The translations under genes were made by a program, and so were the position numbers. Below, piece after piece: positions 831 through 16,667 of a stretch of DNA of 20,709 bases. Position 1 is the stretch's first letter. The number at the start of each line of letters is the position of its first letter. The notes beneath the pieces were generated by a model. That model was given only the letters and a program-made list of their open reading frames with translations. It had not been told where the DNA came from and did not search any database. Source of the stretch: a virus; IMG/VR virus record IMGVR_UViG_3300032236_001018, positions 1-20,709 of that record; one strand, written 5' to 3'.

Positions 831-3800
831 TTATAGTGGCATATAGGTTGGGAACATTGTAGCAGATGCCGTGCTGCTCCAAGTGTTTGCGTTCATATAA
901 ACAACACCGCTGCTTATTGTAGTAGAGAAGTTTGCCAATGCGTTTGCACCAGTGTTAACAACACCATAAACTTGACTGGTTGGAGTTGTTCCATCATGAA
1001 CAACAATCACTTCTGCCATGCTATAACGGTTGTTTGTGCCGTCTGTTACCTTAATAACATATTTTGCGCCACGGAAAGCACTGGTTGAGAAACTATCAAT
1101 TGCTGTAGGTGTATTTTGTGTAAGAGCGACATTGCTCATAAGTGGTGCTTGACCACCACCAAAATAGTTACTGCCGCTTGTGCCAGCGTTTGCAATCCAA
1201 CGATAAGTTGAACCGTTTACATAACCGTGAATATTACCTGTTGTGCCACCAGTGTCAGTTACTTCAAATGCGCTGGTGCCTGCGCTCAATGCAGTAGCAA
1301 TAGCAGTTGTTGTAATAACACGAGCATCGATAACGTCAGTACCTAATGGTGCTTCTGTAAATGCAAGGGTTGTTCCACTTACACTATAAGCAGTTAGTGG
1401 AAGCTGAATAACACCGTTGATGGCAACGATAGTGCTGTTTGTTGTTCCAGCTTGACTTAGTGTAAAGTTTGTTGTTGTTCCATCACCAGTAAATTTATCT
1501 TCACTTACAACTGTAAATGTGCTACCAGTTCCACTCCAAGAAGATGTACCAGCATTATAAAACTCTAGTTGGTTAGTTAGTGAGTTATAACGAACCATAC
1601 CTGCGGTACCATTACTTGGACGTTGACCTGTAGTTCCAACTGGAACAATCATACTATCAGTGCTACCAATTTGGAAACTTGCGTTACCCGTAAAGGAATT
1701 AAATAATTTCTTAATACCAACTTGACCAGTTGAACCATTTAAAACAAGTAGGTTGCCATAGCCAGCAGCACTATTTCCATTAACAATTACGTTAGCAACA
1801 ACACCGCTATAGTTAATCCAAAGATTTCCATTTGCGCCAGTATTCTTGAAAAGATCAGCACCACTTGCTGGATAAATGTTAGAGTTATACATATTTGGTG
1901 CAATTACAGAACTTGCTGCCACAATATTTGCACCGCTATAAATGTTACCAACAACACCAGCACCACCCTGAACAACAAATGCACCAGTTGTTGAACTTGT
2001 GCTTGTTGTAGCAGTTTGAACAACAATATTGCCGTTAGTTGAAACGATTGCAGCATCAGTAGCACCACTGTTTACAACAAAACGGATAGCATTGCTTGTG
2101 GTTGTTCCTAATACAAGGTCACTACTAGTTGATGTTAGATAAACATTGTTTGGTGCAGATAGTGATCCGCTTCCACTAAATCCACTGCTGTTTATACCAA
2201 AGTCGCCATAGTATGTTGATGCAGTGCTCTGATCGTTGTTTACGATAAAGTCAGAACTTGCAGTGGTGCCATTGTTTGTATTTTGTAGGATGCTTTGAAC
2301 ATAACTGTTAATGTTCAATTGTCCCATATACTTTATGTTTACATCACTGTATGAGAGTGTGCCAGCAAATACGTTGCTACCAAGATATACGTTACCACTT
2401 ATACCGATACCACCATTTATGACTGCTGCACCAGTAGTAGTAGAAGTAGAGTTTGTTCCGCTATTTGCATAAACAATACCACCAACAATTGCAGCACCAC
2501 CAACACCAAGACCACCACTACCACTTATAACAACAGCACCAGTTGAAGTAGAAGTAGCAGCATTGCCACTATAGGCAACCATATTACCAAGAAGTAGAGT
2601 ATCGTAAATTATGCTTGCATTGCCAAGATCAACAGTAGAGCCTGGTTCAGTGCGAATATTACTGAACAAATACCAATTATTATCAGTATGATTTCTTACA
2701 AGACCAGTATGGTTATACCCCTCAACTAGATCATATTTGTGACTGTAAAAACCAATTTCATAGTTATAACTTACTACGCTATTTGCAGCAAGATAAAGTA
2801 ACGGTGCATTAGCAACAACCGCATTATAACCAATACTATTGATGTAGTTAACAACAAGGTTACCATTTATATAACTATCGCCACCAGCATAAAAACCACC
2901 AGCAATTTGTAGCGCACCTTGACCGCTTCCATAGCTGTTACCTGTAGTGTTAATCTTTACTGCACCAGCACCATTTTTGCCTAAATTCATAGTTGTAGCT
3001 GCGCCACCCATATTAACAGTGGTAGCATTTGCGTTAAAGACAGATGCTGTGCCAGTAGAACTTGTGTCGATAACTGGATTTGAACCATTAACTAATACTT
3101 GTGTAGTATTTGGTAAAATTAATGAAGGATTATTAATTGTTGCAGCACCAGTGGCCGCACCCATGTTAAGAGAAGTTGCTGCGCCAGCAAAGTTCATTGT
3201 AGTCGCAACAGTATTATAAAGATTCTGTGTAGCTTGGCTACCAATTAAAGTTGGGTTTGCAATATTTGCTGTTCCGCTGGTAGCACCCATATTAAGTGCA
3301 GTAGCAGCACCACCAAAGTTTAATGTCGTAGCAACAGTATTATATAAACTGGTGGTTGATGATGCACCACGAACAGTAGTTGGGTTTATTACTAAAGCGG
3401 CACCTGAAGTTGAACCAAGTGTTATAGAAGTTCCAGAAGCAAATGCAGATATTGTTGTTGCAGTGCCAAGTAAGTTTGCACTAGATTGGTCAGTTGTGAT
3501 ATAACCGTTACCAAGTAGATTGATACCAGTTCCAACATTAAGAGCACCACTCATACCAGCACCACCAGTTACTACTAATGCGCCAGTTGTTGTATTTGTA
3601 GATGCGGTCCCGCTTGCGGCCCAAATATTTCCAGTCGCCGTGATAGTTCCAGTATTAAGAGTAGTTAAACTTGCAGTGCCAATGGTTGCATTATTTAATT
3701 TAATACCATATGCTTGTAAGTTAGCATAACCACTGTTATTAATTGCGCCAAAAGTTGTAGCAGCAGTAGATTCAGTGGTATATTGTAATTGGAATTGCTG

Positions 3801-4115
3801 TGCGCCTTCTTCCCAAATCATCGCAACATTGTTTTGGTTACCACGACCCATTACAAAACCAAGGTCATATGAGGGAGTGCCGCTTTGGTTTCTATTAATA
3901 GCTAATAGTGGGTCTGCAATAACAACGTTTGTAGTATCTAGAGTTGTTGTAACACCGTTGACCGTGAGATTGCCAATGGTCATATTACCAGTATATGTAA
4001 AATTATCACTTAATAGACCGCCACTAACGGACTTTGCTACAACCTTTGCATCAGCATAGATATCACTGTTATAAACTTGGTTATTACGAATTCTCGTTAA
4101 TGCATTCGTTGCCAT
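831..4115 (-). CDS. Large tail fibre protein (1094 aa) with internal repeats
   Basis: A complete beta-repeat fibre protein. Residues 45-120 form a shaft-entry module (GNLTVNGVTTTLDTTNVVI, then DPLLAINRN and an aromatic NNVAMIWEE strand). Four copies of a TTGA-VV-GG-G-GN unit lie near residues 171-197, 518-545, 553-580 and 701-728. Three copies of an ATT-NFGGAAT-LNMG unit lie at 258-383. Residues 825-932 hold a module (RPSNGTAGMVRYNSLTNQ, then FTGDGTTTNFTLS and GVIQLP) that recurs in the 517- and 133-residue proteins. Residues 1000-1094 form a C-terminal domain (DSFSTSAFRGAKYVIKV, AEVIVVHDGT) also found at the end of the 517-residue protein. There is no S74 chaperone at its C-terminus. Translation starts 8 bases after GGGAG, which sits in a hairpin arm with a late promoter in the loop. 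Its length and multiple modules suggest a long fibre, but whether side or tail-tip is unknown. Confidence 0.92.
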   Translation of the reverse strand: MATNALTRIRNNQVYNSDIYADAKVVAKSVSGGLLSDNFTYTGNMTIGNLTVNGVTTTLDTTNVVIADPLLAINRNQSGTPSYDLGFVMGRGNQNNVAMIWEEGAQQFQLQYTTESTAATTFGAINNSGYANLQAYGIKLNNATIGTASLTTLNTGTITATGNIWAASGTASTNTTTGALVVTGGAGMSGALNVGTGINLLGNGYITTDQSSANLLGTATTISAFASGTSITLGSTSGAALVINPTTVRGASSTTSLYNTVATTLNFGGAATALNMGATSGTANIANPTLIGSQATQNLYNTVATTMNFAGAATSLNMGAATGAATINNPSLILPNTTQVLVNGSNPVIDTSSTGTASVFNANATTVNMGGAATTMNLGKNGAGAVKINTTGNSYGSGQGALQIAGGFYAGGDSYINGNLVVNYINSIGYNAVVANAPLLYLAANSVVSYNYEIGFYSHKYDLVEGYNHTGLVRNHTDNNWYLFSNIRTEPGSTVDLGNASIIYDTLLLGNMVAYSGNAATSTSTGAVVISGSGGLGVGGAAIVGGIVYANSGTNSTSTTTGAAVINGGIGISGNVYLGSNVFAGTLSYSDVNIKYMGQLNINSYVQSILQNTNNGTTASSDFIVNNDQSTASTYYGDFGINSSGFSGSGSLSAPNNVYLTSTSSDLVLGTTTSNAIRFVVNSGATDAAIVSTNGNIVVQTATTSTSSTTGAFVVQGGAGVVGNIYSGANIVAASSVIAPNMYNSNIYPASGADLFKNTGANGNLWINYSGVVANVIVNGNSAAGYGNLLVLNGSTGQVGIKKLFNSFTGNASFQIGSTDSMIVPVGTTGQRPSNGTAGMVRYNSLTNQLEFYNAGTSSWSGTGSTFTVVSEDKFTGDGTTTNFTLSQAGTTNSTIVAINGVIQLPLTAYSVSGTTLAFTEAPLGTDVIDARVITTTAIATALSAGTSAFEVTDTGGTTGNIHGYVNGSTYRWIANAGTSGSNYFGGGQAPLMSNVALTQNTPTAIDSFSTSAFRGAKYVIKVTDGTNNRYSMAEVIVVHDGTTPTSQVYGVVNTGANALANFSTTISSGVVYMNANTWSSTASATMFPTYMPL
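2376..2564 (-). repeat. Tandem pair of TTGA-V-GG-G fibre repeats
   Basis: Two adjacent copies in the 1094-residue fibre (residues 518-545 and 553-580) follow the pattern TSTTTGAAVINGGIGISGN, with a variant TSTSTGAVVISGSGGLG. Further single copies lie at 3525-3605 and 1932-2015 in the same gene and near residues 317-338 of the 608-residue fibre. Confidence 0.75.
2976..3344 (-). repeat. Three ATT-NFGGAAT-LNMG repeats inside the 1094-aa fibre
   Basis: Residues 258-281, 300-323 and 361-383 of the fibre protein repeat the pattern (Y)NTVATT-NF-GAAT-LNMGA-(T/S)G, and the third copy ends in LGKNGAG. The DNA of the first two copies is also similar. Such imperfect beta repeats are typical of trimeric fibre shafts and can expand or contract by recombination. 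Confidence 0.8.
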
Positions 4116-4122
4116 CTAAAAT

Positions 4123-4148
4123 ACTCCCACAATTCTATTTATGGGAGT
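4123..4148 (-). promoter_or_regulatory. Late promoter inside an SD-masking hairpin
   Basis: The box CATAAATA (4136-4143) matches the T4-type late promoter NATAAATA, with predicted transcript start near 4130. Perfect 7-base arms (4123-4129 and 4142-4148, ACTCCCA/TGGGAGT) enclose a 12-base loop. The 3' arm contains the GGGAG SD of the 1094-residue fibre. A late transcript would begin after the 5' arm and leave the SD free; a transcript reading through from the ketoacyl synthase gene would fold and mask it. The hairpin could also act as a weak terminator, but only ATTTTAG follows it. Confidence 0.7.
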
Positions 4149-4163
4149 TTTTGGATTTTTAAG

Positions 4164-5366
4164 TCAGTATTTGCCAAGAACCAATGAGGAGTTTATTCCA
4201 CCAAATGCAAAGTTACTACTTAACGCATAATCAATATTCATTTTACGACCAACATTTGGAATTACATCCATATCACATTCTGGGTCTGCGGTTGTATAGT
4301 TTATAGTAGGTGGTGCAAAGCTGTTTTGCATTGCTTTAATTGTAATAATTGTTTCAACAGCACCAGTTGCAGCTATCATATGTCCATGTATTGGTTTTGT
4401 GGATGATATTGGTAGTGAATCAGCATGTGAACCAAATACTTTACGCAAACCAGCTATTTCGTTCTTATCATTAAGTTCAGTACCAGTTCCGTGAGCATTT
4501 ACATAATCGATGTCACTTAAACTTAAACCAGAATCTGCAATTGCGCCTTGCATTGCTTTAACTAATCCTATATTATCAGGTTGCAATAAATGAAATGCAT
4601 CATTTGTATTTGAATGTCCAAGAATACGACCGTGTGGTTTTACACCTCTTGCTATCACATCTTCTTCTTTTTCAATTACTAAAATGCCAGCACCTTCACC
4701 GAGAACTACTCCGTCTCTGTCAATAGTAAAAGGTCTACTACCAGTTAAACTTAATGCGTTCATATATTCCCATGCTCGCATTACATATGGTTGAATAGTT
4801 GCTTCTGTTCCGCCAACGATAGCACGGTCAAGTATACCTGCACGTATAAGTTGAAATGCCAAACCAATTGATTGATTGCCAGCAGCACATCCTGCACCAA
4901 TTGGATAACTTGGACCATAAATTTTATTTTCTATACAAATGTAACTAATAGCTGCATTTGTCATAGCTTTTGGAACAGTGAATATATCTTTTTTATTAGA
5001 TTTTTCAATCAATCTTGTTATTATATTGCAAATTGATTCTGCACCAGGCAACCCATTGCCGATCACTATTCCTGTTCTGCTATCACTTAAAATTTCTTGT
5101 GTAATTTTACTTTCCGCAATTGCCTCACGTGCAGCTATCGCCGCATATGCCGCAAATAAATCTATGCGAGTTTGTCGTGTAAAATGTTCAAGATGATTGA
5201 AATTTTTAATTTTTGCGGCTATGTTTATTTTATTCCCAACATCATAATCGTGTTGAAATTCATGTATACCACTTGTATTTGTTAGTATTGCGTTCCACAA
5301 TGCGTCAACACCAATGCCACATGCAGTTATACAACCCATGCCACTAACAACAATATTTGATTTCAT
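4164..5366 (-). CDS. Beta-ketoacyl-ACP synthase (KAS II/FabF-like), phage-encoded
   Basis: A complete 400-residue condensing enzyme; E. coli FabF has about 413 residues. This family joins an acyl chain held on the active-site Cys to malonyl-ACP with loss of CO2 in the cytoplasm. All key residues are visible: Cys160 in GAGCAAGNQS, His292 in NAHGTGTELND, Lys324 and His329 in SSTKPIHGHMIAATGAVE, and the Phe-gate region SNFAFGGINSSL (Phe388). The thiolase-fold landmarks SRPFTIDRDGVVLGEGAG and PPTIN are also present. Lys-Pro-Ile-His-Gly-His replaces the usual KSMTGH of FabF, so a specialised rather than housekeeping synthase is possible and its substrate cannot be predicted. No acyl carrier protein or other fatty-acid gene is in the window, so it would need host ACP. 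It is last in the adhesin operon, 18 bases after the 196-residue gene. No SD precedes the ATG, and CTTAAATA lies just upstream. Confidence 0.95.
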   Translation of the reverse strand: MKSNIVVSGMGCITACGIGVDALWNAILTNTSGIHEFQHDYDVGNKINIAAKIKNFNHLEHFTRQTRIDLFAAYAAIAAREAIAESKITQEILSDSRTGIVIGNGLPGAESICNIITRLIEKSNKKDIFTVPKAMTNAAISYICIENKIYGPSYPIGAGCAAGNQSIGLAFQLIRAGILDRAIVGGTEATIQPYVMRAWEYMNALSLTGSRPFTIDRDGVVLGEGAGILVIEKEEDVIARGVKPHGRILGHSNTNDAFHLLQPDNIGLVKAMQGAIADSGLSLSDIDYVNAHGTGTELNDKNEIAGLRKVFGSHADSLPISSTKPIHGHMIAATGAVETIITIKAMQNSFAPPTINYTTADPECDMDVIPNVGRKMNIDYALSSNFAFGGINSSLVLGKY

Positions 5367-5371
5367 ATGGA

Positions 5372-5379
5372 TATTTAAG
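5372..5379 (-). promoter_or_regulatory. Possible degenerate late promoter box before the KAS gene
   Basis: CTTAAATA differs from NATAAATA at the second base. If used with T4-like spacing, transcription would start at or next to the A of the KAS start codon, giving a leaderless mRNA. The gap is AT-rich, so a chance match is quite possible. Confidence 0.25.
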
Positions 5380-5384
5380 AATTA

Positions 5385-5975
5385 TTATTTTGAAATGAAA
5401 ACTTTTTCAATCCAAAACTCTGCAATAGCGGCATCTACTGCGGGTGTTGCATCGGCTTCTCTATACACGCAAGCAATTGGTTCTAATGCTTTGTGTGTTT
5501 GACCATTTATTTCTAAATCAACGTTTGAAAAATAGTATCTACCTGTTCTTAAACGAAGTGGTTGTCCACTTGGTATACGCCAAACTTTATCTCGAACTAC
5601 ATCATTCATAGCATTGTTAATCAATTCACGCTGTGTTGCAGGATGTATGCAATAAAAACTCGTATTATCTTCAACTGCAGTAGATACACAACTATCAATA
5701 TTAAATGAGCCACTTGGAGTTATGATTACACCATAACGCAATTTTGAAATATAAGGAGATTCTGGTAGTTCTGTTCCAACGTTTTCTCCATTAAGATAAC
5801 CATCAATATTGAGCCAACCACTTGCAAGAACATGGCGTGAAACAAACTCTTCTTTAGATATACCAATATATGGAAAATCTTGTGTTATTGAATCACCTGC
5901 TTGAGTCATAGTAACTTTGGCAAGTTGCATAGGAAAATTAGCAATATGAATTGTATTGCCTGTAATAACACTCAT
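5385..5975 (-). CDS. Unrecognised phage protein, 196 aa
   Basis: I do not recognise this family. The protein is soluble-looking, with no signal peptide, membrane segment or repeats. Its composition (charged, with Trp, Tyr and Cys) differs from the Thr/Asn-rich fibres around it. Visible landmarks are SKEEFVSRHVLASGWLNIDG (about residues 40-59), a central IITPSGSFNIDSC, FYCIHPATQRELINNAMNDV (about 107-126), and a C-terminal AAIAEFWIEKVFISK. It starts inside the stop of the 120-residue gene (ATGA overlap) with no clear SD, so it is probably translationally coupled to it. It lies directly before the ketoacyl synthase. A small baseplate or fibre-associated protein is one option; a partner of the synthase is another. 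Neither is supported by a motif. Confidence 0.82.
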   Translation of the reverse strand: MSVITGNTIHIANFPMQLAKVTMTQAGDSITQDFPYIGISKEEFVSRHVLASGWLNIDGYLNGENVGTELPESPYISKLRYGVIITPSGSFNIDSCVSTAVEDNTSFYCIHPATQRELINNAMNDVVRDKVWRIPSGQPLRLRTGRYYFSNVDLEINGQTHKALEPIACVYREADATPAVDAAIAEFWIEKVFISK

Positions 5976-6334
5976 AAAATTGTGATGCCTGTCATATTAC
6001 CAACATCACCATTAGGCGATGTATAGGTTGTTACATTTATTAAATCGCCAATTGGAAAATTATATACTTTGCCGATTTCTGCTTTTGCTGCAGCTACTAC
6101 TTCTTCATTCTTTTTGCTTTGTTCTTTAAGATATTTTTGATGTGCTATTACAGCACCTTGTCTTGCAATTTGTGCGAGTGCATCACTTAAATCATTTGGG
6201 TTATAATTATGAATATCAAAACTATAACGTTCACTTTCATCAACGCTCATATCACTTGCATCAGTTGTAAAACTAACAATCAAGCTATGGTTTTCTTCAT
6301 TATATTCATGAACTTTTACAGTTAACGTATCCAT
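5972..6334 (-). CDS. Small unrecognised protein, possible fibre-assembly helper
   Basis: A 120-residue protein with an N-terminal beta part (TLTVKVHEYNEENHSLIVSF), a central acidic stretch, a charged helical segment at about residues 50-90 (LSDALAQIARQGAVIAH, YLKEQSKKNEEVVAAAKAEI), and a short beta-like C-terminus. SD AAGGA lies 7 bases before the ATG. It sits between the glycine-rich adhesin genes and the 196-residue gene, and overlaps the latter by four bases. Small proteins with a helical centre just after adhesin genes are often fibre-assembly chaperones. That is inference from position and shape; I see no diagnostic motif. There is no DSL phosphopantetheine site, so it is not an acyl carrier protein. 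Confidence 0.82.
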   Translation of the reverse strand: MDTLTVKVHEYNEENHSLIVSFTTDASDMSVDESERYSFDIHNYNPNDLSDALAQIARQGAVIAHQKYLKEQSKKNEEVVAAAKAEIGKVYNFPIGDLINVTTYTSPNGDVGNMTGITIL

Positions 6335-6343
6335 TTTAATTCC

Positions 6344-7165
6344 TTAAGAATAGCTTCCAAGTCTTGTGCCTGTTACAATCCACGTTGCATAGGCTATACC
6401 GTTGATATATTTACCAGCAGCGCCGCCTGCTCTACCGTTTCCACTAGTTGCACCATCTTGACCAGGATTACCACCATTAGCACCTCCGCCACCGCCTGCA
6501 GTTCTAGTTCCACCACTTCCACCATTAGCGCCGCCACTACCAGCATCATAACCAGCACCACCACCACCGCCAGTTCCGTTAAAGCTACCGCCGCCGCCTA
6601 AACAGCTACCATAAGTTGAACCACCGTCAGTTGCACCACCGCCTCCACCTGCACCAGCAATAGTTCCATTGTTTGTAATGTTTACTGCGCATTGTAATAA
6701 TAGTGCGTTACCACCAGGTGCGCCACTTCCACCAGCACCGCCGTTACCATCGCCACCATTACCTCCAGTTCCAATGATAACGCCATTGTTTATTAAATTT
6801 ATAGTATCACCAGATGAAAATCCAGTAATTGTCATTGCATAAGAACCAGTAGAACTGCTACCAACATAAATTCCGCTGTTAATTGTTAAATTTACTTTTG
6901 TAAAATTAGCTACATATCCACTTACTGCTGCTGGATTTAATGTATAATTTTTTGTATCAGCGGCAATAGTTAAATCAACAGTAACCTTATTTTGCGTTCC
7001 ACGAAACTCACTGAAATTTAAATTTGTAGTATCAAAAGTGCCAATGGTTAACGTTGATGGTTTATAATATGAAACTCCACGGTAAAATGACAGTGCATTA
7101 CCTAACTGAAATTCAGTGTTAATATTTGCATTAAGGGCAACTTTACCAGTTAACGAAATTGTCAT
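6344..7165 (-). CDS. Glycine-rich adhesin-like tail protein, 273 aa
   Basis: Residues 1-57 form a head module (NANINTEFQLGNALSFYRGV, ending NLNFSEFRG) that matches residues 14-63 of the 217-residue protein upstream. Residues 58-130 are beta-rich (VTVDLTIAADTKNYTLN, INSGIYVG, GDTINLINNGVIIG). From about residue 130 to 250 there are long glycine tracts (repeated GGxGG, with GAGGGGGA and TAGGGGGANGG), then a short C-terminal cap ending YATWIVTGTRLGSYS. Phage distal adhesins such as gp38 of Salmonella phage S16 use polyglycine helix sandwiches to present receptor-binding loops; the composition here suggests a similar solution, but homology cannot be shown by eye. It follows the 117-residue gene by one base and has only a weak GGA as SD, so coupled translation is likely. 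Confidence 0.88.
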   Translation of the reverse strand: MTISLTGKVALNANINTEFQLGNALSFYRGVSYYKPSTLTIGTFDTTNLNFSEFRGTQNKVTVDLTIAADTKNYTLNPAAVSGYVANFTKVNLTINSGIYVGSSSTGSYAMTITGFSSGDTINLINNGVIIGTGGNGGDGNGGAGGSGAPGGNALLLQCAVNITNNGTIAGAGGGGGATDGGSTYGSCLGGGGSFNGTGGGGGAGYDAGSGGANGGSGGTRTAGGGGGANGGNPGQDGATSGNGRAGGAAGKYINGIAYATWIVTGTRLGSYS

Positions 7166-8175: not shown

Positions 8176-10002
8176 TTAACTACCTCGTGCTTTTAATGCC
8201 TCTACTTCTGCACTTAATTCTTTAATTGCTTCAATCAATAGCGGCACAAGTTTTTCATATCGCACAGCCAAAAATCCATCATCACGTTGTGTAACAACTT
8301 CTGGTAGAACTTCTGCAATTTCTTGTGCGATAACACCCGCTTCTGTTGCATCAGTTTTATTAGAATCTATGCTCTTTGCTGTATCATTCCAGTTATAAGT
8401 TACACCATTTATTTGATTAACTTTATTAAGAGCATCGGATATATTGTTTATATTAGTTTTTAAATTCTTATCTGATGAATAGAAAGCGGTAATATCACCT
8501 GTTGCTGTAATGGCACCAGTAACTGCCATAGTTGCACCATTGTATGTAATGCTGCTATTAGCCGCAAGGTTTGTAGCACTTGTGTAAATTGCAAATTGTC
8601 CTGCAGTTCCACCACCACTAACAGGTGTTGGAATTGTATACCAACTTAAATTGCTGCTACCATCGGTGATAAGAGCCTGACCACTGCTACCACCACTAAT
8701 TTGAACATTACCGACATTACCCATAATCACTTTATATGTGCTTGTTGGGTTAAATGTAACTGTTCCACCAGTGAAACCTGCTGCTCCGCTAACTTGAAGT
8801 GCGGTAAGTGTTCCAATGGTTGTGATATTTGTTTGTGTTGCTGTGCTTATTGTTCCAGTAAGAGTAGCACCAATATTACCAATAGTGCCAGCATTTACAT
8901 AGTTTGCATAAACATTACCATTATTACTGTTGCCATTAGCAATTAGATTACCAACATAAACGTTACCAGTAAATGCATTATTTGGTCCACCAACAATTAC
9001 GTTGCCACCAATACCTACACCACCAACAACTTGGAAAGCACCACTTGTTGTGTTATAAGCACCAGCAGTTCCATATACAATACTTGTTTCATTGCTTGTT
9101 GTAACATCAAGATTACCAAGAACAAACAAGTTACCGTTAACCTGAACGTCAGCATTAGCAAGGATATCAAGAGCGTCAACAACGCCGCCACTACTATTGC
9201 GTGTTCTTAGACGAATAATACCATTATTAAGGGTATTGTCTACACGCATTTCATTACTATAAACAGTAAATGCACCTTGTCCAGTTGTTCCAATATTAAT
9301 ACCACTATTATTTGTAACACTTAAAATACCAACTGTGCCAGTATTTTGATCATTACGCATAAATGAACTGCCACTTACACCATTAAGTGCGGCACTATCA
9401 CTTGCTTGACCAACAAATTTATTGTTACTTACGAAAGCGGTTGATGCTATATTAAAACCTGGTGAAATTGTACTAAAACCACTTATTGTAACACTTGGTG
9501 TAAATGTTGCGTCTTTGCTTAGAATAGCATAGCGAACATTGTTAATCTTCATACTAATAACATCATGGCTGCCAGCTACTGTATCAACAATGCTTTCACT
9601 CACAACTTGACCAGCACCACCGAGTGGACCGATTGTAACCCAACCTGTTCCATTATAAACGTTAAGTTGTTGGTTGGCACTATCAAACCATAGATCACCA
9701 GCAACACTGCTTGTTGGAGCAACTGAACTATTAGTTGCACTTGCAATATTCTTAAAAATTACACCATTATATACTTGTAATGCACCTTTTGTAGTATTAT
9801 ACCAAATTTGTCCAACAATTGGATTGCTTGGCTGACTACCACTTGCAAAGTTTTGCAACATGTAAAGGAAATTTTGATCAAGGTATTGACCATAATTAGG
9901 GTAATTTTTACCCACAAGTGAGAGACTTGTGCTGTTATCTACCGTTCCATCGGCAATAACGATTGAATTAGCACCATTTGCATAGGTAATGGTATAAGAC
10001 AT
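8176..10002 (-). CDS. Tail fibre/spike with C-terminal S74 self-cleaving chaperone
   Basis: A 608-residue fibre protein. Residues 1-125 form an N-terminal module known from aquatic phage fibres (LSLVGKNYPNYGQYLDQNF, then two copies of a G-(Q/D)-(I/L)-W-(Y/F)-(N/D) followed by L-VYNG phrase at about 64-79 and 102-117). The middle is beta repeat, with one TTSGAFQVVGGVGIGGN copy at about 318-334. Residues 508-608 are a peptidase S74 (intramolecular chaperone of endosialidase) domain: SSDKNLKTNI with likely catalytic Ser510 and Lys515, then NGVTYNW, GVIAQEIAEVLPEVV, and a terminal helix (LIEAIKELSAEVEALKA). In this family the domain trimerises, helps the beta-helical fibre fold, then cleaves itself off just before the Ser. 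A late promoter and SD GGAG (8 bases before ATG) precede it, and it leads the operon with the three glycine-rich genes. Confidence 0.94.
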   Translation of the reverse strand: MSYTITYANGANSIVIADGTVDNSTSLSLVGKNYPNYGQYLDQNFLYMLQNFASGSQPSNPIVGQIWYNTTKGALQVYNGVIFKNIASATNSSVAPTSSVAGDLWFDSANQQLNVYNGTGWVTIGPLGGAGQVVSESIVDTVAGSHDVISMKINNVRYAILSKDATFTPSVTISGFSTISPGFNIASTAFVSNNKFVGQASDSAALNGVSGSSFMRNDQNTGTVGILSVTNNSGINIGTTGQGAFTVYSNEMRVDNTLNNGIIRLRTRNSSGGVVDALDILANADVQVNGNLFVLGNLDVTTSNETSIVYGTAGAYNTTSGAFQVVGGVGIGGNVIVGGPNNAFTGNVYVGNLIANGNSNNGNVYANYVNAGTIGNIGATLTGTISTATQTNITTIGTLTALQVSGAAGFTGGTVTFNPTSTYKVIMGNVGNVQISGGSSGQALITDGSSNLSWYTIPTPVSGGGTAGQFAIYTSATNLAANSSITYNGATMAVTGAITATGDITAFYSSDKNLKTNINNISDALNKVNQINGVTYNWNDTAKSIDSNKTDATEAGVIAQEIAEVLPEVVTQRDDGFLAVRYEKLVPLLIEAIKELSAEVEALKARGS

Positions 10003-15926: not shown

Positions 15927-16667
15927 TTATACGCCGTATTGTCCTCTTTGTGCGGTATAGTTTGCAGCCATTTCAGTGGAACTTAACGCACGATTATAAA
16001 TTAATATTGATCCTATACTACCCTGAAACATACCATCGCCTGCCCATTCACTGCGTCCAATAAAACAATATTGTCTTGTTACGTTAGCCGCTGTACTCAT
16101 TGTTGCTGTGCCTGCAGCAGCACCATTTACATATATGGTTCCTGTTGTTCCCGACATTGTACCACCAACATTATACCACACATTATAAGATAACTGTTGA
16201 GTAGATTGGAATTGTGAACCACTGACATAAAAACCTGGATATCCTGTAGTGCCATAGGTTGATGCTAATAGCACAGAGTTATTGCCAGCACCATTACCAA
16301 AGTCAATAATGCGTTGCCAGTTATTATATGCTGAAATTTTAATCCAAGAACTTATTGTAAAATCGCCGTTAAAATAAACATCGTTAGGTGCTTGTCCATA
16401 TTGAACTGAACCTACTGTGCCTAATGCTGGTGCAACGCCTGTTCCAGAAAATACTAAACTTTTTCCATCATAAGTTGGGCTGTTATATAGTGTAGCATTT
16501 CTACCATTACCACTTAAATCATACCAAGTTGAACCAGTGCCAGGATAACTGCTTACAAGTGTTGAGTCAAGGTTCAGTAACAATCCAGCTGCCACAACGT
16601 TTAAACTTGTTGTAAATTGAAATCCACTGCCAATGTTAAATCCAGTTCCTATTGTGTGTGATACCAT
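15927..16667 (-). CDS. LamG-like (concanavalin A-like) tail protein, 246 aa
   Basis: A short leader (HTIGTGFNIGSGFQF) precedes a single LamG/ConA-like lectin fold filling the rest: GLLLNLDSTLVSSYPGTGS with TWYDLSGNGRNATLYNSPTY (about 28-65), FTISSWIKISAYNNWQRIID (about 102-121), WYNVGGTMSGTTGTIYVNG (about 160-178), then CFIGRSEW, and the closing MFQGSIGSILIYNRALSSTE and YTAQRGQYGV. This fold is widespread in sugar-binding domains and common in aquatic phage appendages. Role inferred: surface glycan contact or virion decoration. The start overlaps the stop of the 240-residue gene (TAATG) without an SD. It is the last of three LamG genes in a row. Confidence 0.92.
   Translation of the reverse strand: MVSHTIGTGFNIGSGFQFTTSLNVVAAGLLLNLDSTLVSSYPGTGSTWYDLSGNGRNATLYNSPTYDGKSLVFSGTGVAPALGTVGSVQYGQAPNDVYFNGDFTISSWIKISAYNNWQRIIDFGNGAGNNSVLLASTYGTTGYPGFYVSGSQFQSTQQLSYNVWYNVGGTMSGTTGTIYVNGAAAGTATMSTAANVTRQYCFIGRSEWAGDGMFQGSIGSILIYNRALSSTEMAANYTAQRGQYGV

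Follow-up and report, generated by a model that had tools for sequence, protein, structure and literature searches.

The stretch of DNA analysed here (the window) comprises the 20,709 nucleotides of an IMG/VR virus fragment, and the gene under study, located at positions 4164–5366 on the minus strand, encodes a 400 aa ketoacyl-ACP synthase (KS) of the accessory (NodE-like) class with an ATG start codon and intact Cys160, His292, Lys324 and His329. The gene resides in a tail-fibre unit, marked as such by a tail-fibre protein with a C-terminal Peptidase_S74 chaperone domain (8176–10002, minus strand). On the same strand are a Gp38-like glycine-rich tail-fibre adhesin (6344–7165; PF05268 E = 2e-6, with PHROG tail-fibre matches), a conserved 120 aa tail-block protein which occurs both with and without a KS (5972–6334), a predicted bicupin of 196–197 aa that always lies directly upstream of the KS gene (5385–5975), and a long fibre-like protein of 1094 aa (831–4115), the next gene after the KS at all eight loci examined. 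A protein with a LamG/concanavalin-like lectin domain is encoded at 15927–16667, also within the fibre block (PF13385 E 2.8e-24). The Pfam and PHROG matches among the recognisable neighbours (Peptidase_S74 chaperone, Gp38-like, tail-fibre PHROGs and LamG lectin) are tail-fibre, adhesin or lectin-like, in agreement with a preliminary description of this DNA in which they had been read as virion structural genes. The same description placed the KS at the end of an operon, and this must be corrected: two further fibre ORFs of the same strand (831–4115 and 3–806) come after the KS, which also seems to possess a late-promoter-like motif of its own. An AlphaFold model of the 197 aa protein (pLDDT 76) returned Foldseek matches to bicupins with TM values of approximately 0.45–0.53, suggesting a cupin-like tail-block protein with no sign of a fatty-acid enzyme.

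The T4 late promoter is TATAAATA, which the motif YWTAAATA resembles. A T4-like late-promoter motif, CTTAAATA, occupies positions 5372–5379 (minus strand), with 5 nt between it and the start codon of the KS, and a second late-promoter-like motif, CATAAATA (4136–4143, minus strand), precedes the gene of the 1094 aa fibre. Ahead of the KS, YWTAAATA is found at seven of the eight loci and TTAAATAT at all eight. In the window as a whole YWTAAATA occurs six times against 11 expected, which is no more than chance, yet all six copies are on the coding strand and five are positioned in short gaps before genes, including the one preceding the KS; it is the placement of these motifs, not their number, that is telling. 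No Shine-Dalgarno sequence is visible in the 18-nt gap before the KS. From these features it would appear that the KS is expressed late from its own start, and a leaderless KS message is possible.

Both KS domains were recovered by Pfam over the full length of the protein (PF00109, E = 3.8e-35; PF02801, E = 1.1e-30), with scores of 122.1 and 106.5 bits, respectively, against a cut-off of 20.8, which places it in the elongating-KS superfamily. The catalytic residues Cys160, His292, Lys324 and His329 align with Cys163, His303, Lys335 and His340 of Escherichia coli FabF and are invariant in all eight phage homologues, as are the gating residues Phe388, Asp256 and Asn392. All of the solved structures closest to it in sequence belong to elongating KSs, bearing the annotation FabF-type synthase 2 (E 2e-86); an AlphaFold model of the KS itself, built from eight close sequences, reached a pLDDT of 39 and was set aside. 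The preliminary description of a full-length, 400-residue enzyme with an intact active site is thereby substantiated, and the assignment as an intact, full-length, accessory-class ketoacyl-ACP synthase under selection, as judged from its sequence, is firm.

It had been proposed that the gene be sought at the same locus in related contigs. A scan of IMG/VR returned eight contigs bearing a KS gene with 71–95% identity to that of the window; since a 111-kb contig is a 100% subset of a 338-kb contig, these represent seven independent relatives which, together with the window, provide eight loci. The gene order Gp38-like adhesin, 120 aa protein, 197 aa protein, KS and long fibre is retained at all eight, and each of three contigs searched for the purpose contains a single KS. 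The 338-kb contig exhibits a T4-like layout with many tRNAs, its sheath-like and other structural genes having been identified by eye without a family search. It also carries a permuted alpha-type tmRNA (RF01849, 108 bits; L050:330–709, tag ANDNAPVEMRLAA), on account of which an alphaproteobacterial host is hinted at. Other genes were noted in these contigs. Towards an end of the 338-kb contig that is putatively viral, a curli-type set (L064:12096–15635, approximately 310.1–313.6 kb) comprises CsgG (E 4.6e-45), CsgF (8e-13), two curlin-repeat proteins and one FecR-domain protein, and the jumbo-phage contig also encodes sugar-nucleotide enzymes (L052:2394–10685), namely a GDP-mannose 4,6-dehydratase (E 6e-137), an epimerase and a C-methyltransferase. 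A tryptophan halogenase (L169:14193–16387, E 8.5e-105) is encoded in the tail region of a 63-kb KS-bearing relative, where a 2OG-Fe(II) oxygenase is also weakly matched.

A viral auxiliary metabolic gene is a metabolic-enzyme gene flanked by viral genes in a genuine viral genome, which is the situation encountered at all eight loci, and its product would alter the metabolism of the host during infection. The notion that the gene is neutral, recently acquired cargo, an assembly chimera or host contamination is very improbable. It draws on the sporadic distribution of the KS in the wider phage group, where ten contigs with the 120 aa neighbour have no KS at this place, and is opposed by the presence of the gene at one and the same locus in eight phage sequences of 71–95% identity, by a GC content resembling that of the surroundings, and by dN/dS values of 0.07–0.20, far below 1 and indicative of purifying selection. 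The shared arrangement at eight loci leads us to reject chimerism and contamination, and the suspicion of a decayed insertion, raised alongside that of a chimeric contig in the preliminary description, fails because the catalytic residues are lost in none of the eight homologues. The KS inside the virion-gene block is consequently real, complete and selectively maintained.

Comparison with KS-less phages delineates the insertion. In the IMG/VR search the 197 aa protein was confined to KS-bearing contigs, while the 120 aa protein was detected on ten further contigs from which the KS is absent at that place; the KS-less relatives carry a distant homologue of the 197 aa protein (180–192 aa) at the equivalent position. 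In five of these (L084–L088) the bicupin-like gene is followed directly by the fibre-gene homologue, and in two others (L089 and L090) by neck-type genes. Related phages are without a KS at that spot, and the gene is thus an insertion belonging to a single T4-like jumbo-phage lineage. Its history within that lineage differs from that of its neighbours: in the KS gene tree relative L004 is joined to the window, L002 and L003 (support 100/99), but it falls with L005 and L008 in the tree of the 197 aa gene (97/94), and with L007 in that of the 120 aa gene (100/99). These supported conflicts imply that recombination has passed the KS between members of this phage group, a frequent occurrence for tail modules. 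They also bear on the proposal that the KS produces an acyl group to be attached to a tail fibre or other virion protein, which would account for its place among fibre genes. The constant location of the KS, flanked by the bicupin-like gene and the fibre gene at 8/8 loci, is in line with such a role, as is the occurrence of the putative modifying enzymes in the tail region of the 63-kb relative, whereas the separate exchange of the KS and its neighbours argues against a strict partnership. A KS, moreover, catalyses C–C bond formation and is unable to acylate a protein on its own, no acyltransferase was recognised within the window, and nothing links the KS to a virion protein; we consider the proposal quite improbable.

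The class of the enzyme was established by scores and by individual residues. The best NCBIfam match is to fabF (TIGR03150), at 372.6 bits against a cut-off of 493.75, and the score to a second FabF model (PRK07314) is 369.1 bits against 387, such that the protein falls below both. Four positions separate the accessory KSs from the FabF type to varying degrees. Trp199 (FabF position 202) and Ala387 (FabF 399) are each present in 8/8 phage and 38/38 accessory KSs and in one of 16 FabF-type enzymes; His327 (FabF 338) is found in 7/8, 36/38 and 1/16, respectively; and Asn299 (FabF 310), which is shared by half of the FabF-type enzymes (8/16), occurs in 8/8 and 38/38. In addition, FabF position 133 is not Phe in the phage KS, and the loop at 205–213 is shortened in all eight phage proteins, as in accessory KSs and unlike FabF. 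The KPIHGH signature had been taken as a hint of a specialised KS, a view substantiated by the distribution of His at FabF 338; the site comparison identifies it as a mark of the accessory class, and the exact signature recurs in two cellular accessory KSs, while relative L008 has KPIYGH, meaning that His327 is not invariant. Falling under the FabF cut-offs and lacking Phe202, Gly399, Thr338 and the loop of FabF, the protein is not a FabF. An extra elongating KS that sustains ordinary fatty-acid synthesis late in infection is for these reasons unlikely: the scores and the class residues and loop stand against it, despite the elongating-KS fold, the fabF model as top NCBIfam match and the earlier proposal that fatty-acid auxiliary genes boost elongation (PMC10653327).

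Among 398 Pseudomonadota genomes the best cellular matches are paralogues of approximately 395 aa, scoring 345 bits against approximately 265–285 for proteins of FabF length; in the Acidobacteriota genome search accessory-type and FabF-type matches score alike. These broad genome searches replaced a peptide-pattern scan of genome contigs that was biased toward Nitrospina FabF. A phylogeny had been suggested as a check, and in a tree of 76 KSs the phage proteins form a branch with a long stem within the accessory clade that includes NodE, accessory and phage KSs being united with a support of 96 in the free tree. A sister position of the phage branch relative to that clade fits just as well (p-AU 0.60), and its grouping with NodE alone is allowed, possible if not required (p-AU 0.55); forcing it to join FabF costs 30 log units (p-AU 0.10), which falls short of formal rejection. 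The tree thus leaves the origin of the KS unfixed, either inside or sister to the accessory clade, and the residue evidence is the clearer.

Cellular accessory KSs have an ACP gene in their flanks in 33 of 34 cases, and those with annotation lie beside nod genes or an LpxD-like acyltransferase. The absence of an ACP claimed in the preliminary description was borne out in searches with PF00550 and a custom ACP profile, which returned none in the window, the 338-kb relative or the other KS-bearing contigs; neither was a FabG-type reductase (PF13561) found in KS-bearing contigs, and in both cases the contigs may be fragments. A 120–121 aa MaoC/hotdog-like dehydratase candidate with the GDxxxxH motif, present in both large KS-bearing contigs (L054:14490–14855 and L171:2204–2566), was unsupported by Pfam and PDB comparisons (at most 12 bits, below cut-off) and rejected; as the 121 aa protein also occurs in the sample yielding a KS-less relative, it is not counted as a partner of the KS.

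The docking face of the enzyme is altered. In the AcpP–FabF complex, ACP is bound by Lys65, Arg68, Lys69, Arg127, Lys128 and Arg206 (PMC7138838). The equivalent of Arg206 is Asn in seven and Gly in one of the eight phage KSs, Lys65 is replaced by Gln and Arg68 by Thr, and position 128 is Lys in five and lost in three; a two-residue alignment gap near 65–69 renders those positions less certain than 206. The gating Phe and the loop-2 Asp are retained. Catalysis looks possible on this evidence, and the carrier partner may be unusual. Were catalysis secondary, the protein might instead bind host ACP or act in a structural or regulatory capacity. Such moonlighting would fit the rewired docking residues, the lack of a detected phage ACP and an enzyme chemistry that is predicted from sequence, and it sits poorly with the retention of all catalytic residues, under purifying selection, down to 71% identity; we hold it to be improbable.

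A second, unrelated phage KS lineage was encountered in MW202545 and 51 IMG/VR contigs (L010:11339–12717, L189–L239; 314–376 aa, Pfam 1e-15). It is divergent from the jumbo-phage KS (29% identity over half of the protein) and, like it, lies inside a block of virion genes, between a gene annotated as a phage stabilization protein and ejection-like genes, one of which has a transglycosylase domain. The Cys, His, Lys and His residues are kept in almost all members. Directly upstream of the KS, 50 of 50 checkable contigs have an ORF whose product contains the motif DS[LM]D; this product received no ACP call from Pfam and is linked to ACPs by profile comparison (hhalign 94%, E 1e-7). The corresponding PHROGs, phrog_35856 (KS) and phrog_28189, are listed as of unknown function. 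A profile of these ACP-like proteins found no match in the KS-bearing jumbo-phage contigs. With Arg206 lost in 8/8 and region 1 changed, it is conceivable, if decidedly doubtful, that the jumbo-phage KS has been retuned from normal ACP docking towards an unconventional carrier or a direct role in tail maturation. If true, virion genes and a C–C-bond-forming enzyme would constitute one functional module, to which the ACP–KS pairs of the second lineage would be a parallel case.

The reading we favour, at a probability of roughly 0.45 and hence somewhat short of even odds, is that these phages have captured an accessory-type (NodE-like) KS and keep it as an auxiliary metabolic gene whose product, acting late, supplies the envelope of the host with a special acyl chain. 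The KS would be expressed late in infection together with the tail fibres; Cys160 would accept an acyl group, presumably from host acyl-ACP, and His292 and His329 would decarboxylate malonyl-ACP, yielding a beta-ketoacyl-ACP; the reductase and dehydratase of the host could complete this product to an unusual acyl chain. The chain may then enter an envelope lipid or glycolipid of the host, altering its surface or membrane to the benefit of the phage. Of the three roles put forward in the preliminary description (redirected host fatty-acid or envelope-lipid synthesis, surface lipids altered to stop re-adsorption of progeny, and an acyl group for a virion protein), redirection of envelope lipids is favoured because the cellular kin are ACP–KS pairs, some of them in nod or LpxD-like loci. 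Weighing against it are the phage ACP and FabG-type reductase not found in these contigs, the altered docking face and an origin left unfixed by the tree.

The preliminary description noted that surveys list fatty-acid genes among viral auxiliary metabolic genes, and earlier reports confirm this: fabF has been described with acpP and fabG in putative Rhodobacteraceae prophages (PMC8224337), and fabF, fabG and fabZ in deep marine viromes at 1,000 m (PMC10653327). Phage isolates are also on record with a lone ACP or FabG gene (PMC5463345, PMC11705849, PMC11372344). No paper describing a KS in a jumbo-phage tail-fibre block was found in the literature searched, which covered few subscription papers. 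Most KS matches in INPHARED were discarded, being of less than 40% identity and from unannotated records resembling bacterial sequence, and the KS of E. coli phage 500465-2 looks like a chromosomal fabB. The KS described here forms a stable phage gene family of definite class, specialised and not housekeeping; its locus is fixed, phages lacking the KS are available for comparison, and the selection acting on it has been estimated. The family yields the testable claim that specific surface acyl chains are altered by phages late in infection, and the ACP–KS pair among the virion genes of the second lineage suggests that late phage ketosynthases are recurrent and are missed by current annotation.

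With regard to known systems, the earlier fabF-type viral genes resemble the jumbo-phage case in that a KS is present in virus-assigned sequence, and differ in being accompanied by ACP and reductase genes or known from reads only (PMC8224337, PMC10653327). FabF (KASII) has the fold, the Cys-His-His-Lys active site and the Phe gate in common with the phage KS. Alphaproteobacterial ACP–KS pairs, such as the LpxD-like/ACP/KS arrangement of Paracoccus, belong to the same class at approximately 37–39% identity; unlike the phage gene they are non-viral, being chromosomal or on megaplasmids, with the ACP adjacent (33/34), and judging from their neighbour genes they likely act on surface-lipid acyl chains. 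NodE, the rhizobial KS that functions with the ACP NodF on the acyl chain of Nod factors, adjoins its own ACP in nod clusters, whereas the phage KS was found without one and has altered docking residues; at approximately 37% identity, the two enzymes nevertheless share Trp202, Ala399, the KxxH[GA]H signature and the short loop.
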